DNA from: Candidatus Halocynthiibacter alkanivorans
GTDB taxonomy: Bacteria; Pseudomonadota; Alphaproteobacteria; Rhodobacterales; Rhodobacteraceae
NCBI RefSeq assembly: GCF_003333265.1
Contig: NZ_QOLB01000091.1
Span: forward strand, 1-64,000
Direction of reading: 5' to 3'
DNA length: 64,000 nucleotides
The notes under the pieces: generated by a model
Told to the model about the DNA's origin: nothing
Databases searched by the model: none
The model's input: only the letters and a program-made list of their open reading frames with translations
Translations under genes and position numbers: made by a program
Part shown: piece after piece, positions 4,974-63,230 of the stretch
How positions within the stretch are numbered: position 1 is the first letter of the stretch
Layout of the letters: each line of letters opens with the position of its first letter

Positions 4974-6188
4974 TCAGTGCGTCTTTCCGGCGCTGCGCCG
5001 CCCGGCTTTGGGCAACCACAACCACGGTGCCAGCCGCAGGGTGAACAGCAGATAGCCCAGCGCCCAGGCCGCGGCGGCCAGGGTCATTGCCTCCTGAGAT
5101 GAGACCGGTGCGAAGGCGCGCAGCACGGCCGACAACACGATCAGAGCAAAGGCCGCCACCAGCACCCGCCCCGCCACAAGCGCCCGCCCGGTATGGCCCA
5201 TTGCAGCACGCATCATCACCGCAGTTGTCATGCCACCGATCGCGCCGATGCCGAGCAGATGCACGCCCGTGGCCACGCCGGTCAGCTCAGGAAATAACAC
5301 CGCCAGGCCCAGCGCGGTGAGCCCGGCCGGAATGAAAAGAAATGACAGGTGCAACATCATGAGCAACGGGGACGCCGCGCAGCGCGCGCCTTGCCAGCGG
5401 CCCAGACGCAGCAGGTTCAGGGTCGCCGCCACCAGCAAGGCCACGCCGGACCAATACAGGCCGGGAACCAGCGCCCAGAGCAGCAGCGCGACGGCCGTGA
5501 GCAGCAGGCACAGCGCGTCAAACCGCCCCACCGGTGCCGGCATCGCCCCACCCGGCGCCTGTTTATTGAGCCAGTTGCGGGTGAAACTGGGCACAATGCG
5601 TCCGCCAATCAGCGTGATCAGAAACACCAGCACGCCAAGCCCCAGCCGCAAGCCGGCATCAGTCGGCGCGCCGGTGATTTGTTCCAGGTGAAACACCAGG
5701 TTGGCCAGCAGAAAAATACCGAGCGGCAGCAGGATTTTCAGATTGCGCCAATTGCGCCCGGCGATGATCTCGACCGCGACCATGCCCAGCAGTGCCAGCG
5801 GGAAAGCCAGATCAGCCCCCATAAGCGCCACCGCGCCGAGGCCGCCAGCGCCAGCCATCGCCAGCCGGCCCAGGAGCCACAGCGTCACCAGCAGTGCCAG
5901 AGGCGCTCCGGTGCGCGGCATGCGGCCGGTCCAGTTGGGGATCGCGGTGAACAGAAACCCGGCCAGAACCGCGCCACTGTAACCAAAGATCATTTCATGC
6001 ATATGCCAGTCGCGGGCGCTGAGTGTACCGCCTGGCTCCACACCGCTGTAGAACATATAGATCCAGGCGGGCACCGCCACCGCTCCAAACAGCCCCGCCA
6101 GAAAGAAAAACGGCCTGAACCCGTAGCTTAAGATCGCCGGGCCGCTGTAGGGCGCGGGACGCCCTGAGGCAGGAGAAGGATTTGTCAT
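4974..6188 (-). CDS. nnrS: NnrS family haem/copper membrane protein
   Basis: NnrS proteins are 12-helix haem- and copper-containing membrane proteins linked to nitric-oxide stress and denitrification. The 404 residues are almost continuous hydrophobic helices. Family hallmarks are the N-terminal YGFRPFF motif, the W-H-x-HEM-x-FGY segment near residues 62-70 and a conserved TAIPNWTGR loop near 81-89. Its histidines are candidate metal ligands. The ATG at 6188 has GAGGA seven bases upstream; a GTG directly before it (6191) is less likely. It follows a pseudoazurin gene on the same strand with a 128-bp gap holding 17-bp tandem repeats. The pairing with a blue-copper protein supports a nitrogen-oxide role. 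Confidence 0.92.
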   Translation of the reverse strand: MTNPSPASGRPAPYSGPAILSYGFRPFFFLAGLFGAVAVPAWIYMFYSGVEPGGTLSARDWHMHEMIFGYSGAVLAGFLFTAIPNWTGRMPRTGAPLALLVTLWLLGRLAMAGAGGLGAVALMGADLAFPLALLGMVAVEIIAGRNWRNLKILLPLGIFLLANLVFHLEQITGAPTDAGLRLGLGVLVFLITLIGGRIVPSFTRNWLNKQAPGGAMPAPVGRFDALCLLLTAVALLLWALVPGLYWSGVALLVAATLNLLRLGRWQGARCAASPLLMMLHLSFLFIPAGLTALGLAVLFPELTGVATGVHLLGIGAIGGMTTAVMMRAAMGHTGRALVAGRVLVAAFALIVLSAVLRAFAPVSSQEAMTLAAAAWALGYLLFTLRLAPWLWLPKAGRRSAGKTH

Positions 6189-6200
6189 CACTCATTCCTC

Positions 6201-6316: not shown

Positions 6317-6751
6317 TTAAAGCACCTGTTCAAACATGCGTTCAAATCGTCTGGCAGATTTCTTCGGATGGCCTACCGCAGCGCTTTCTTGCAGATTGAC
6401 CGCTTCCCCGACCTGGATCAGCCCAACCATACCCATGACGTAATGGGGGGCGCATTTAATGCCATAGAGCCCCTCGGCTTTGAGCGTCAGGGAAAAATCC
6501 GCGTTCAGTTTTGTTCTGAACGGTTCAGCCCCTTCGGGAAGCATGCCGGCGATAGACACCACATTGTGGCCTTTGGTGGTGGAGACGAATTCGATCGTAT
6601 CGCCCGGCTGCGCCGCAATGAACGCCGGCTCAAACACCATCAATCCGTCTTTGCCGCGGTCCAGCATTTCGACAATGAATATTTCTGCCGAAGCGGCGCC
6701 CGCCAGCAGCATCACAGAGGTGGCCGCGGCTGCGATCATTTTAACAAACAT
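6317..6751 (-). CDS. Pseudoazurin (periplasmic blue copper protein)
   Basis: A small type-1 copper electron carrier, 144 residues before processing. A signal peptide ends at ASA (residue 22). The cupredoxin fold carries copper ligands His62 (TKGHN) and the Cys100-x2-His103-x4-Met108 loop (KCAPHYVMGM), the signature of pseudoazurin. Such proteins donate electrons to copper nitrite reductase or other periplasmic reductases. The mature protein has an unusual basic C-terminal tail after about residue 118. It precedes nnrS on the same strand, and an FNR/NnrR-type site lies upstream at 6823-6836. A second pseudoazurin sits beside nirK at 61.5 kb. Confidence 0.93.
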   Translation of the reverse strand: MFVKMIAAAATSVMLLAGAASAEIFIVEMLDRGKDGLMVFEPAFIAAQPGDTIEFVSTTKGHNVVSIAGMLPEGAEPFRTKLNADFSLTLKAEGLYGIKCAPHYVMGMVGLIQVGEAVNLQESAAVGHPKKSARRFERMFEQVL

Positions 6752-6787: not shown

Positions 6788-6836
6788 CACCATGTGTTTA
6801 GGCCAGGGGGAGATGCACCAGTTTGCGCGAGATCAA
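6788..6836 (-). promoter_or_regulatory. FNR/NnrR-type activator site and promoter of the pseudoazurin gene
   Basis: On the minus strand TTGATCTCGCGCAA (6836-6823) matches the TTG-N8-CAA core of FNR/NnrR/Dnr boxes, with one perfect TTGAT half. A -10-like TAAACA (6800-6795) lies where a class II promoter with an activator at -41.5 would place it, giving an inferred start near 6788. This implies induction by low oxygen or NO. Confidence 0.6.
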
Positions 6837-57639: not shown

Positions 57640-58668
57640 TCAAGCAGATGCGCGCATCACCAGCTTGCCTTCAAACAACGTCTCGTGCCTCGAATCACCG
57701 GTGCCCCCGCTTTCGATCAGAGCAAGCAGCGTCTCCACACTGCGTTCTGAAATCGCCTCGTAGTCTTGTGAAACGGTCGTGAGAGACGGACAGGTGAAAC
57801 GCGAAAACGGGTGATCGTCATGGCCGGCGACCCGAATATCGCAATCTGCTTTATGGCCCACGCGCAGACCCTGTTCGTAGCAGGCCGCGAGAAAACCAAT
57901 CGCAAGCCGGTCGTTGCTGCACAGTACTGATTTTGTCGGCAGGCTGCGCTCAGAAATCAATTTTAGACCCCCTTTGTATCCAATCTCCTCAAACCCCCAG
58001 CCTTCGCCGTCGACGCGCACGATATGTGGTTCAAATCCCAATCGCTCCATCGTCTGGATAAACGCGTTTCGGCGCTTGTTGGCGTTGGGGTTCACCGGCG
58101 ACATTTCCAGGAATATCGGTGGTTCACCCGTGCGGCACAGGTATTCAACGCTCAACTGAACGAATTGCATATTGTTTGAACCTACAAACGCTTCGCCGAC
58201 GCCTTCAATATTGCTGTCAAAAAGCACAGTGGGCACGTCATCACAGAACTTCTCGATACTGCTGCGGTCAGACGCCCGCCCCAGCGGCGCCATCAAAACG
58301 CCCGCCGGACGTATTGAGCGAAGTGTGTCGAGAATTTCATTCTCATGCTGAGGGCTGCCATGTGAACTGAATGTTGTCGGGGAAAATCCAGCCGCGATAA
58401 AGCGCTGTTCGATGTTGCGGGCGAGTTCAGCGAAAAACGGATCGGCCACGAAAGGCACCACGATTCCGATATTCTTGGTCAACCGTCGGTTTTGGTTGAT
58501 GGCATAGACATTTGGACGATAGTCGTAGCGCTCCAGTGCCGCTTCGATGCGAATTCTTGTCGATTTTCGAACGCTGTTCGGATCGTTGAAATATTTAGAA
58601 ACTGTCGGCCGCGAGACACCGCTCCTGGCCGCGAACTCTTCCATATTCTTAATTTTGTCTTCGCCCAT
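57640..58668 (-). CDS. LacI family transcriptional regulator of the polyol operon
   Basis: A 342-residue repressor. The start is placed at ATG 58668 because the HTH (MEEFAARSGVSRPTVSKYFNDP) follows almost at once and GAGAA lies just upstream; a 44-residue extension is not family-like. The effector domain (about 65-340) includes NIGIVVPFVADPFFAEL, SNDRLAIGFL and VAGHDDHPFSRFT. The gene directly precedes smoE. It should release its operators when polyols are present; operator-like palindromes lie at 57614 and 58747. Confidence 0.93.
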   Translation of the reverse strand: MGEDKIKNMEEFAARSGVSRPTVSKYFNDPNSVRKSTRIRIEAALERYDYRPNVYAINQNRRLTKNIGIVVPFVADPFFAELARNIEQRFIAAGFSPTTFSSHGSPQHENEILDTLRSIRPAGVLMAPLGRASDRSSIEKFCDDVPTVLFDSNIEGVGEAFVGSNNMQFVQLSVEYLCRTGEPPIFLEMSPVNPNANKRRNAFIQTMERLGFEPHIVRVDGEGWGFEEIGYKGGLKLISERSLPTKSVLCSNDRLAIGFLAACYEQGLRVGHKADCDIRVAGHDDHPFSRFTCPSLTTVSQDYEAISERSVETLLALIESGGTGDSRHETLFEGKLVMRASA

Positions 58669-59766: not shown

Positions 59767-59775
59767 ATGCTACTT
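59767..59775. promoter_or_regulatory. Half-site shared with the nirK operon palindrome
   Basis: ATGCTACTT lies 44 bases before the nsrR start codon and is identical to one arm of the palindrome at 63205-63224. The other arm is not conserved here. It may be a weak NsrR site for autoregulation. Confidence 0.4.
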
Positions 59776-59818: not shown

Positions 59819-60259
59819 TTGCGTTTGACCACCTACACTGATTACACGTTGCGGGTGCTGATGTATGTCAGCCTGAAGAATGGCGAAAAGGCGACGATGA
59901 AGGGGATTTGTGAGAGCTACGGCATCTCCAGAAACCATGTGATGAAAATCGTGCAGGACCTGGCCCGCGAGGGTCTGTTGGAAACCTCGCGCGGGAAAAC
60001 TGGTGGCATATTGCTGGCCAGAGCACCGGAAGACATCTCATTGCGCAAAGTCATCCAGAAATCAGAACCCGATTTCAGGATCGTTGAGTGTTTCGAATGC
60101 GGTTTGTCCACTTGCCCGCTGGTGGGGAACTGTGTGCTGACCGGCGTGCTGGCCGAGGCGATGAACGCCTTTTTGGATGTGCTGGGCAAATATACCCTGG
60201 CCGATCTGGTGCGGCCGAAAAATGCCCTGGCCAGGATGCTGAACCTGCCCGAGCTCTGA
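59819..60259 (+). CDS. nsrR: NsrR, Rrf2-family nitric-oxide-sensing repressor
   Basis: A 146-residue Rrf2 protein that carries an iron-sulfur cluster and releases DNA on reaction with NO. The winged helix (residues 3-60) includes MKGICESYGISRNHVMKIVQDL. The cluster cysteines Cys94-x4-Cys99-x5-Cys105 match the E. coli NsrR spacing, and the YTLADLV tail segment is conserved. The start is TTG 59819 because GGAGG lies eight bases upstream and the fold begins at once; longer frames upstream are not family-like. It converges on nirK across a shared terminator and is likely the regulator of that operon. Confidence 0.93.
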   Translation: MRLTTYTDYTLRVLMYVSLKNGEKATMKGICESYGISRNHVMKIVQDLAREGLLETSRGKTGGILLARAPEDISLRKVIQKSEPDFRIVECFECGLSTCPLVGNCVLTGVLAEAMNAFLDVLGKYTLADLVRPKNALARMLNLPEL

Positions 60260-60281
60260 CCACATTGGCGTTGGCGAACAA

Positions 60282-60320
60282 AAAGGCCGCCAGAGTGTCT
60301 CCGGCGGCCTTTGTTTTCTC
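60282..60320. terminator. Bidirectional terminator between nsrR and nirK
   Basis: AAAGGCCGCC (60282-60291) pairs perfectly with GGCGGCCTTT (60303-60312). The plus strand continues TGTTTTC and the minus strand TTGTTC, so it can end both convergent transcripts. Confidence 0.85.
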
Positions 60321-60328
60321 AGCGGGCT

Positions 60329-61417
60329 TTATTTGCCTGTGTCGAGGATCTCAGGCTGCTCATCGCCGATCACTTCGATCTGAGCAGCGTTACCTTTGGC
60401 GGTCACCCGCGACAGCGCGTGATCGACCAGGGTCACAAGGCCCGGAACCGGCAGCTTCATATCACCGACAAAGGCGGAGCCCGGCGACACCGGCCAGGTC
60501 TGGATATATTGCAGCGGTGCATTGGCCAGGCCACCCTGGGGCCAGGCGCGGGACCAGATGTTGCCCACCGGGTGGAAGCTGGAGGTTTTGTTCGGCCCGC
60601 CGGAGACGAGGAACACGCGCACGGTTTCGCCAACTTCGGCTTTCATAGTGCCAAAACGGCTGGCCACAAACGGGGCCACGGCGCCGTTGAACATCACATA
60701 GGTGGGGTTTTCTGCCGCCATGTCGCGGCCGCTGAATGTCGCCTCACCCGGCTGGCCAAAGCCTTCTTTGGTGTAAAGTTCGTGCTGACCCAGATAAAAT
60801 TCACGGTCCACCTCGGGCAGGCCTTCTTCGGGCTCGATCACGATCATACCGAACATGCCGCGGCTGATGTGCTCATCCATATTGCTGACACCGCAGTGAT
60901 AGATGAAAGCGCCGGGGAACAGGGCTTTGAAGCTGAAGCTTTTGGATTCGCCGGGCGCGACTTCGGTAAAGGCGCCACCACCGCCGGTGCCATAAACAGC
61001 GTGCAGATCGATCGAATGTGAGGCCTCGTTTTCCGCCGGGTTGGTGACGGTGATATTGAGTGTGTCGCCCTGACGCGCCCGGATCATCGGCGCCGGCACC
61101 TGGCCGTTGAAGGTCATGAAGGAATGGGTCACGCCGGGCAGGATTTCCGACACCACCCGTTTGGACACCAGTTCGATGTTGTGGGTGCGCGGGCTGTTCC
61201 AGGTCACCGGGGCCGGCAGCACCGTAGGGTCGGCCACAACCAGGTCCGGAGTGATGGTTGCGCCGGCAAAACTGCCCTCAACCACGGGCGGCTTTGGCAC
61301 CGCCGCATGTGCTTTGGCCGTGCTGGCCAGCGCCGTTGCGCCGGAGGCCGCAAGCCCGAGCCCGGCCATTTGAACAAATTTGCGCCGGTTGGTGGTAAAC
61401 GTATTTGAGTCAGACAT
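60329..61417 (-). CDS. nirK: Copper-containing nitrite reductase, class II (AniA-like)
   Basis: Reduces nitrite to nitric oxide in the periplasm; 362 residues. A twin-arginine signal (RRKFVQMAG, about residues 11-19) exports the folded enzyme. Type 1 copper ligands are His134, Cys175, His183 and Met188. Type 2 ligands are His139, His174 and His333, with catalytic Asp137 and His282. SSFHPVGNIWS and LVDHAL place it with the AniA-like class II enzymes. AAGGAGA precedes ATG 61417. It is the last gene of the operon, after a pseudoazurin and a multicopper oxidase. Electrons probably come from pseudoazurin. Confidence 0.97.
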   Translation of the reverse strand: MSDSNTFTTNRRKFVQMAGLGLAASGATALASTAKAHAAVPKPPVVEGSFAGATITPDLVVADPTVLPAPVTWNSPRTHNIELVSKRVVSEILPGVTHSFMTFNGQVPAPMIRARQGDTLNITVTNPAENEASHSIDLHAVYGTGGGGAFTEVAPGESKSFSFKALFPGAFIYHCGVSNMDEHISRGMFGMIVIEPEEGLPEVDREFYLGQHELYTKEGFGQPGEATFSGRDMAAENPTYVMFNGAVAPFVASRFGTMKAEVGETVRVFLVSGGPNKTSSFHPVGNIWSRAWPQGGLANAPLQYIQTWPVSPGSAFVGDMKLPVPGLVTLVDHALSRVTAKGNAAQIEVIGDEQPEILDTGK

Positions 61418-61483
61418 CGGATGTCTCCTTGAGTGTTTCTCAGTGAGTGGGTGTTCAGAATTGAGGATGGGAAGACGCGGGGC

Positions 61484-61984
61484 CTACTCAGATTTGAGTG
61501 CGTCCAGCAGCGCGCCGACGCGGGCGATACCCGGTTCAGACAGCGCCATGTTGCCCTGATAGCTGGCCAGGACCGCATCAAGATTCACCTTCGGGTCGCC
61601 GACAACAACGAGGCCAACCATGCCCACCGCTTTATGGGCGGCGCATTGGTAGACATAGACACCTTCGCTGTCAAAACTCACCGAAGTATCGGCGTTTTTA
61701 TAGCCCTTGAACCCGGGCGCACCGGCAGGCAGCAACCCGTCGACCGCAATCAGGTCATGGCCAAAATCCCAGGCCACAAAATCCACGGTCTCACCCGGCT
61801 GGATCCGGATCACCGCCGGTTCAAACACTTTGGCCGCACCATCGGTGCCGCGGTCCAGCGCGCGGACTTCAAACGGTACAATTACCTGGGCATAGGCCAT
61901 GCCGCTCACGCTCAGCGCCAGCGGGCTCAGAGACAGTTGCAGCGCCACCAGCGCCGGTACGGGCAATTTATTACGAAGTTTCAT
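61484..61984 (-). CDS. Pseudoazurin-like blue copper protein
   Basis: A 166-residue periplasmic type 1 copper protein. The signal peptide ends at AYA (residue 32). Copper ligands are His76 (DFGHD) and the Cys114-x2-His117-x4-Met122 loop (YQCAAHKAVGM). A C-terminal helix-rich extension (about 130-166) is longer than in classical pseudoazurins. It lies between nirK (66 bp) and the multicopper oxidase (28 bp), so it is most likely the electron donor to NirK. Confidence 0.92.
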   Translation of the reverse strand: MKLRNKLPVPALVALQLSLSPLALSVSGMAYAQVIVPFEVRALDRGTDGAAKVFEPAVIRIQPGETVDFVAWDFGHDLIAVDGLLPAGAPGFKGYKNADTSVSFDSEGVYVYQCAAHKAVGMVGLVVVGDPKVNLDAVLASYQGNMALSEPGIARVGALLDALKSE

Positions 61985-62012
61985 TTCAGGTCTTCTTTCG
62001 TGGGAGGGGCTG

Positions 62013-63122
62013 TTATTTTTCCAGTCTCGCGGCTCTGAAGCCCGACTGGGTGATAAGTCCGTGACCGCGTTTCATGCTGTCAACGAAGTAGAAATCGGGG
62101 TCATATTTTTTGCGGGCCCAGAGATACCAGGGGTCGTCGCGGCCGACTTCCTCATACTCAACCACGGTGAACAGGCCACCCGGCGCATTGCCATTGTTGC
62201 TGAGGTGACCGTCATCATGGTCATGCGCCGGCCAGCGCCCGGGATTGTCCATGCGCACAATCACATCGACCCGCTGCCCCATCGCCACATGTACGGTATC
62301 AGCATAATAAGGCGCCGGCACAGGCAGCCCGTCGCGGTGGGTCACCAGCATATCGTGGCCATGAAGGTGGAAGGACACCGGCACGCTGGCCGCAAAAAGC
62401 CGCAACCGCAGCACGTCGCCCTCGCGCACGCGGATCGGCTGGTTGTAGGGGAAGGACTTGCCGTTGATCGAAAAATAATTCAGCCCGCCGGTGGGGTCTT
62501 CCTTGGCGAAAAAGTCATCGGCAACTTCGCTGTTCCATCCCGAGAACATCAGGATCGCGTCTTTGGTCACTTCTTTCTCGATCGGCAACGGATCAATCGG
62601 ATCGACAATCAACGGTCCCCACATGCCGCGCACGCCAACATGGTTGGGCACTTCCACATGGCAGTGATACCAAAGGCTGCCCGGACGGTTCGCAGTGAAG
62701 CGATACGTCTCGTTGGCGCCGCCTGAATCAATCGCCAGCCCATTGATCCCCGGGGCGCCGTCATTGCGCCAGGTCCCTTTCTGGTGGATGCCGTGCCAGT
62801 GGATTGTATGGGTGCCGGTGGTATTGTTGGTGACATTGGCTTCAATGGTATCGCCCTGGCGCACCCGGATCAGCGGGCCGGGGACCTGACCGTTATAGGC
62901 CCAGACATTGGTGTCAAAACCCCGCGCCACGCTCAGGCGGGTCTCTTCGATTGTCATGTCAAATTTATGGGTTGTGGCCTCGCCGGGGTCCACTGGTGTT
63001 TCTGCGGCGGCGGTCTGCTCCTGCGCCAGCGTGCCGCCCGCCAGGGCCGCTGTTGTCGATGCAACTGCGCCCAGACCCGCAAGCTTTACCAGGTTGCGAC
63101 GTGAGATAGCTGAGTGTTCCAT
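62013..63122 (-). CDS. Two-domain multicopper oxidase, type 1 copper only in domain 1
   Basis: A 369-residue periplasmic oxidase exported by the Tat route (SRRNLVKLAG). Domain 1 has HTIHWH (105-110) and WYHCHVEVPNHVGVRGM with Cys154, His161 and Met167 as type 1 copper set. Domain 2 has HLHGH (252-256) and HDHDDGH (300-306) for the trinuclear cluster, but no Cys. This is the type C two-domain class, like the blue copper oxidase NcgA of the Nitrosomonas nirK cluster. The ATG at 63122 has AAGGAAA upstream. It is first in the nirK operon. It may oxidise copper(I) or protect against reactive nitrogen species. Confidence 0.93.
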   Translation of the reverse strand: MEHSAISRRNLVKLAGLGAVASTTAALAGGTLAQEQTAAAETPVDPGEATTHKFDMTIEETRLSVARGFDTNVWAYNGQVPGPLIRVRQGDTIEANVTNNTTGTHTIHWHGIHQKGTWRNDGAPGINGLAIDSGGANETYRFTANRPGSLWYHCHVEVPNHVGVRGMWGPLIVDPIDPLPIEKEVTKDAILMFSGWNSEVADDFFAKEDPTGGLNYFSINGKSFPYNQPIRVREGDVLRLRLFAASVPVSFHLHGHDMLVTHRDGLPVPAPYYADTVHVAMGQRVDVIVRMDNPGRWPAHDHDDGHLSNNGNAPGGLFTVVEYEEVGRDDPWYLWARKKYDPDFYFVDSMKRGHGLITQSGFRAARLEK

Positions 63123-63190: not shown

Positions 63191-63230
63191 AAGATGCATT
63201 TTAGATGCTACTTCAAAGTAGCATTGTCAA
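63191..63230 (-). promoter_or_regulatory. Palindromic operator and promoter of the nirK operon
   Basis: A perfect inverted repeat with 9-bp arms ATGCTACTT and AAGTAGCAT (63205-63224). On the minus strand TTGACA (63230-63225) is a -35 candidate and TAAAAT (63203-63198) a -10 candidate, with the palindrome filling a long 21-bp spacer. The arm sequence recurs before nsrR, so NsrR is the best candidate binder; a MerR-type activator is an alternative because of the long spacer. Confidence 0.65.

Follow-up and report, generated by a model that had tools for sequence, protein, structure and literature searches.

In Nitrosomonas europaea, nirK and ncgABC make the cell tolerant to nitrite, and nirK becomes deleterious when ncgABC is missing; the same source also assigns an ncgABC-nirK locus to Nitrobacter winogradskyi (PMC5080386), and ncg-type loci are found outside Nitrosomonas in Zetaproteobacteria as well (PMC3603346). 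These loci have in common an NcgA-type multicopper oxidase (MCO) in one operon with NirK, and an adjacent Rrf2 regulator. The same combination is found in Candidatus Halocynthiibacter alkanivorans (Rhodobacteraceae), at positions 59819-63122 of the stretch of 64,000 nucleotides analysed here (contig NZ_QOLB01000091.1, positions 1 to 64,000; hereafter, the window), where a pseudoazurin-type cupredoxin is encoded between oxidase and NirK, whereas the NcgB/NcgC cytochromes are absent. Judging from sequence comparison, this would be an operon for tolerance to nitrite and nitric oxide (NO), similar to ncgABC-nirK, in which the pseudoazurin links NirK and the oxidase, a reading to which we assign a probability of about 0.5. 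The features of the locus are the following:

59767-59775, plus strand: putative operator half-site ATGCTACTT, 43 bp 5' of the regulator start codon
59819-60259, plus strand: Rrf2-family regulator, NsrR-like, 146 aa, TTG start (PF02082, E 1e-33)
60276-60318, between the convergent 3' ends: terminator-like inverted repeat with 20-nt arms, 85% complementary, and a 3-nt gap
60329-61417, minus strand: NirK, class II-like, 362 aa, Tat-type leader (TIGR02376 322 bits, cut-off 296)
61484-61984, minus strand: pseudoazurin-type cupredoxin, 166 aa, signal peptide (TIGR02375, PF00127, PDB 3tu6)
62013-63122, minus strand: two-domain MCO, NcgA-like, 369 aa, Tat-type leader (2zwn, 3g5w)
63205-63224, upstream of the operon: perfect palindrome ATGCTACTT-CA-AAGTAGCAT, presumed operator of the regulator

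Gene order and operon structure

The four genes reported by the first-pass annotation of this DNA were confirmed in the window. The three copper protein genes are transcribed from the minus strand in the order MCO, pseudoazurin, NirK, with intergenic gaps of 28 and 66 bp, which is consistent with an operon. The regulator gene, on the plus strand, reads toward the 3' end of that operon, i.e., both are convergent, tail to tail, and separated by the inverted repeat; the earlier description of an operon facing an nsrR gene is to be corrected to this convergent arrangement with an Rrf2/NsrR-like neighbour. A consensus terminator scan did not pick up this repeat, and a scan for sigma-70 promoters and terminators gave matches that were not above chance. 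By eye, the leaders of MCO and NirK are of the twin-arginine (Tat) type; that of the cupredoxin is Sec-type. The genes on either side of nirK encode the regulator and the pseudoazurin, so no nirV adjoins it, and the translations reveal no CxxCH protein encoded in the operon, so that the NcgB/NcgC c-type cytochromes are not present. The same three genes, in identical order, were found in the independent assembly of Pseudovibrio japonicus (locus L006, with 77, 57 and 77% identity for oxidase, pseudoazurin and NirK, respectively), which speaks against an assembly artefact.

The oxidase and the genes beside it

Among solved structures, 2zwn (415 bits) is closest to the MCO, followed by 3g5w (341 bits), presumably a protein of N. 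europaea. By analogy with NirK, H105, C154, H161 and M167 of domain 1 were assigned as type 1 copper ligands, domain 2 has HxH motifs without the cysteine, and trinuclear-site histidines are present in both domains; the copper-ligand columns (the type 1 set and the HxH motifs) are identical in all 38 homologues. Restriction of the type 1 copper to domain 1, with trinuclear-site histidines in both domains, fits the earlier assignment to two-domain oxidases of type C. Identity to the oxidases of ncg-nirK loci from Nitrosomonadaceae-like bacteria, Gammaproteobacteria and Campylobacterota is 47-62%, and in a tree with a weak root (the two outgroup rows lie on very long branches) the alphaproteobacterial pair joins the ncg-locus oxidases of Gammaproteobacteria and Campylobacterota with a support of 95/92. 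The oxidase phylogeny suggested as a check thus groups the MCO with the NcgA oxidases of ncg loci, and its sequence relationships identify it as an NcgA homologue.

In the eight named ncg-type loci (L007-L014), c-type cytochrome genes lie directly beside the oxidase without exception (8/8), and an ncg-type NirK is found inside the fetched stretch in six; of the other two stretches, that of L009 stops shortly past the cytochromes and that of L007 starts just before the oxidase. Likewise, cytochromes are beside the oxidase in 28 of the 29 loci (L017-L045) of family f188, the exception, L045, being at a contig end. We infer this family to be Nitrosomonadaceae from its small genomes, from its ncg-type NirK and from a gammaproteobacterial relative whose NirK best matches 4kns (343 bits), the NirK of N. 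europaea. In 14 of these 29 loci (L018, L019, L022, L025, L026, L028, L030, L031, L035, L036 and L039-L042), the cytochrome region adjoining the oxidase consists of a single open frame that contains three CxxCH motifs and may represent a fusion of NcgB with NcgC.

Both alphaproteobacterial loci, in the window and in P. japonicus, carry a pseudoazurin in place of the cytochromes, which leaves the oxidase and NirK as the constant part of these loci, the part between them having been exchanged. The case for an electron link, which rests on two genomes and gene order, draws mainly on a carrier of a different fold appearing where the cytochromes stood. Since both NcgB and NcgC are absent, the trio does not belong to ncgABC-nirK proper, and would rather be a variant of the NcgA-NirK kind.

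The cupredoxin itself matches PF00127, has solved pseudoazurins as its best matches (PDB 3tu6, E 7e-26) and contains the type 1 copper motifs FGHDL and YQCAAHKAVGM. It reaches 104.8 bits on TIGR02375, just below the cut-off of 109.85, and is for this reason named pseudoazurin-type. The extended tail previously attributed to it turned out to be ordinary, with 21 residues past the aligned core against 16 in 3tu6. A second, canonical pseudoazurin is encoded at 6317-6751 (minus strand; TIGR02375 153.7 bits, above the cut-off), followed by NnrS at 4974-6191 (minus strand). Upstream of this canonical pseudoazurin, at 6823-6836, there is an FNR/NnrR-like box, TTGATCTCGCGCAA, such boxes not being above chance frequency in the window. 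One 64 kb stretch therefore holds two pseudoazurins, apparently under different control.

A class II-like NirK

The type 1 and type 2 copper ligand columns of NirK, as well as the catalytic D137 and H282, are conserved in 39 or 40 of 40 sequences. The protein appears class II-like and does not look like the Nitrosomonas type. In a single alignment, its identity is 44.9-51.9% to 12 haloarchaeal NirKs, 37.5-44.2% to 17 other class II, 29.6-37.4% to nine ncg-type and 28.0-31.5% to five class I representatives, and its closest relatives among plasmid records are haloarchaeal (49-54%), followed by Alphaproteobacteria (43-46%). In one tree, the ncg-type rows are a separate clade (100/99), and in another the alphaproteobacterial pair goes with the haloarchaea (89/90). 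Approximately unbiased (AU) tests do not make the position of NirK among haloarchaeal, class II and ncg placements firm: with an outgroup, placing the pair in the ncg clade is not rejected (p 0.266), an earlier test of that placement, with no outside root, having been uninformative.

Haloarchaeal nirK loci, which hold the nearest NirK by identity and often a halocyanin (a cupredoxin) nearby, have no adjacent MCO in the annotated stretches read; the only MCO found (L063) is ~32% identical and ~12 kb away. These haloarchaeal genes are often located amid DUF2249 proteins, CGCGG-family peptides modified by radical SAM enzymes and halocyanins (L061-L064, L097-L099, L119, L120).

Could the locus still be a true ncgABC-nirK locus of the Nitrosomonas type, spread horizontally? 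The homology and tree of the oxidase, the adjoining regulator and the AU result would agree with it, as would S133, F150 and R186 of NirK, shared in our set only with ncg-type NirK (11/11, versus 0/33, 0/33 and 0/34 of the others), the first and the last of which flank the type 1 copper ligands. However, haloarchaea share about as many exclusive residues (three, or two in one of three alignments, against three with ncg-type NirK), so these positions are a lead whose count alone is meaningless. Moreover, NcgB and NcgC are absent, the window NirK sides with haloarchaea at 27 and with the ncg type at only 4 of the sites that separate both groups, the regulator is convergent and at the far end of the operon, and the leaders of oxidase and NirK are of the Tat type versus the Sec type (by eye). 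A true ncg locus is, on balance, improbable. The likeness to ncgABC-nirK claimed at first pass holds for the oxidase and for the presence of an adjoining Rrf2 regulator; it is not supported for the NirK type, and NcgB/NcgC are absent; the suggested NirK phylogeny pointed away from the ncg type in terms of identity (30-37%, versus 45-52% to haloarchaea), although joining the ncg clade is not rejected.

The regulator and its presumed operator

The closest solved structure to the regulator is NsrR 5n07, and a cysteine motif C-x4-C-x5-C can be recognised by eye. Among the eight Rrf2 proteins compared, the nearest is a P. japonicus regulator encoded beside a class I nirK (61/138 identical positions), followed by a Maritalea plasmid regulator (56/136) and the P. 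japonicus RirA (53/145). With up to 3 mismatches allowed, the 4.77 Mb genome contains no other site like the palindrome ATGCTACTT-CA-AAGTAGCAT, which is found once in the window versus 0.01 times expected. Of its 9-mer half-site, ATGCTACTT, the window has three copies against 0.25 expected, two forming the palindrome and one preceding the regulator gene, which ties the regulator to the operon. Repression by the NsrR-like regulator would hence be exerted through the palindrome and the half-sites. As for FNR/NnrR-like control, no TTG-N8-CAA box was found beyond position 57678 in the window.

Nitrogen oxide metabolism in the genome

A respiratory NarG (2091 bits, one of eight molybdopterin enzymes) and a single NnrS, that of the window at 4974-6191, are encoded in the genome, together with four COX1-family proteins, namely two CtaD-like, one CcoN and one further COX1-like. 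Among these, a divergent COX1-family oxidase of 566 aa (L075, G000:C49:21456-22784), with 261 bits to CtaD, far below the cut-off, shares its contig with a CtaD-like oxidase encoded ~8 kb away. NosZ is lacking, with no nos_propeller match in the genome and two in P. japonicus.

The search for a NO reductase elsewhere, which had been proposed as a check, gave no NorB among the four heme-copper oxidases of the COX1 family (in a genome 99.77% complete; flavohaemoglobin and further NO sinks lay outside the search), and the same search did detect a qNOR in P. japonicus. The lack of NorB and NosZ and the presence of NarG and NnrS speak for a tolerance operon.

Several findings weigh against such an operon under an NsrR-like repressor. 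P. japonicus, which carries the same trio, has the qNOR, the two NosZ matches and a second NirK-like protein, so the trio does not always go with the lack of a NO reductase. The regulator scores higher on the RirA model (145.8 bits, cut-off 193) than on the NsrR model (112.9 bits, cut-off 182), below both cut-offs. The published NsrR consensus, gATGyAT-N5-ATrCATc (PMC1274295), was discarded as the operator, since the window matched it only 4 times when up to 3 mismatches were allowed, versus 7.3 expected; a site with 2 mismatches at 63193 overlaps the palindrome, which proves nothing. Furthermore, the regulator of the P. japonicus operon is another Rrf2 protein (37%), encoded divergently upstream, and the palindrome is missing there, so the regulation is not conserved, and an operator common to both loci was searched for and not found. 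The second NirK-like protein of P. japonicus (L086, G813:C7; 119 bits to the window NirK) groups with class I and adjoins the Rrf2 regulator that is the closest compared relative of the window one.

With NarG and NirK but no NorB, nitrate can be reduced to nitrite and on to NO, and there is no heme-copper NO reductase to act afterwards. The locus might for its part serve a truncated denitrification, in which NirK, fed by pseudoazurin, carries out nitrite respiration to NO, with the oxidase just an accessory in copper supply or detoxification, for instance by oxidising Cu(I) during the loading of NirK. Pseudoazurin is an established electron donor of NirK. In line with this, a Maritalea plasmid (L066) has an Rrf2 regulator, a pseudoazurin and a class II NirK close together, with no MCO in the annotated stretch, a class II nirK lies among copper genes on an Agrobacterium plasmid, and NarG is present. 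Nonetheless, the oxidase is NcgA-type, a kind found with NirK in six of the eight named loci (in the remaining two, the stretch stops before a NirK could appear); CopA/CueO-type models score far below their cut-offs on it; the genome lacks NorB and NosZ; and the operon has no FNR/NnrR-like box. We regard this explanation as possible, though somewhat unlikely. The absence of nirV, FNR/NnrR-like box, NorB and NosZ agrees with the earlier view that this is not a classical nirK-nirV cluster.

Distribution and origin

Apart from the window genome and P. japonicus, the oxidase is almost absent from the sampled Alphaproteobacteria. At E 1e-60 it was found in 1/121 sampled relatives, the own genome alone; at E 1e-40, in 2/385 genomes of the class (the own one and another at 36%) and in 34/398 of the phylum, comprising the own genome, two in the class (36-37%) and 31 in family f188 (47-51%). 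A single-protein scan of genome contigs gave nine loci, i.e., P. japonicus (77%), six gammaproteobacterial metagenome-assembled genomes (48-62%) and two from Campylobacteraceae (55%), and the best match in 600 plasmid records, all below 60% identity, reached 37.5%, none being NcgA-like. NirK, in turn, was found in 1/16 Pseudovibrio genomes (P. japonicus). Such a rare and patchy occurrence suggests horizontal spread of the module, as proposed before. The operon G+C of 0.56-0.62 is similar to that of the flanks, so the import is not visibly recent, and composition was rejected as a sign of it. The stretch 40001-64000 is best matched by Rhodobacteraceae plasmids (76-78%), and the flanking genes, read from their translations, are LacI-type, MocR-like and ABC-transporter genes.

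The patchiness would also be expected of an acquired cassette that is not in use, or of an oxidase acting as a general laccase on some organic substrate. Against both, the copper-ligand motifs are intact in the three proteins, the reading frames are whole, the palindrome occurs once in the genome, and the operon is kept at 57-77% identity in another family, all of which makes this option very unlikely.

Proposed function and implications

In the proposed tolerance operon, the NsrR-like repressor of the Rrf2 family, which presumably senses nitrite-derived NO through an iron-sulphur cluster, would repress itself and the operon via the ATGCTACTT half-sites, and its release would yield three periplasmic copper proteins, NirK, the pseudoazurin and the NcgA-type oxidase. 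The pseudoazurin would join the type 1 copper of NirK to that of the oxidase, taking the role of the NcgB/NcgC cytochromes in Nitrosomonas; both this link and the direction of electron flow are what we infer from the gene set. Without oxygen, electrons would pass from the respiratory chain through the pseudoazurin to NirK, turning nitrite into NO. When oxygen is present, the oxidase would drain the carrier into O2, keeping NirK oxidised and limiting the release of NO, and NirK may even turn NO back to nitrite. The purpose would be to let a bacterium that respires nitrate, and has no heme-copper NO reductase, tolerate nitrite and NO. A bolder version, which we consider unlikely, is that the trio constitutes an O2-driven NO oxidase chain, in which NO is oxidised to nitrite at NirK and the electrons reach O2 through the pseudoazurin and the NcgA-type oxidase. 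The ncgABC-nirK of ammonia oxidisers would be the same system wired by cytochromes, and S133 and R186 (11/11 oxidase-linked NirKs, versus 0/33 and 0/34 others) would be part of a shared docking.

No publication whose title or abstract describes an oxidase-pseudoazurin-nirK trio was found, full texts having been covered only in part and the existence of one not being excluded. An ncg-type module in an alphaproteobacterium is less novel than originally stated, given that ncgABC-nirK is already known from Nitrobacter (PMC5080386); what appears to be new is the cupredoxin-linked variant of the NcgA-NirK operon. The replacement of the cytochromes by one cupredoxin shows that the oxidase and NirK are what stays constant in these systems, and suggests an electron carrier as the part that can be exchanged. 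In addition, P. japonicus offers a named heterotroph in which the role of the oxidase-NirK pair could be tested while avoiding the slow growth of a nitrifier.

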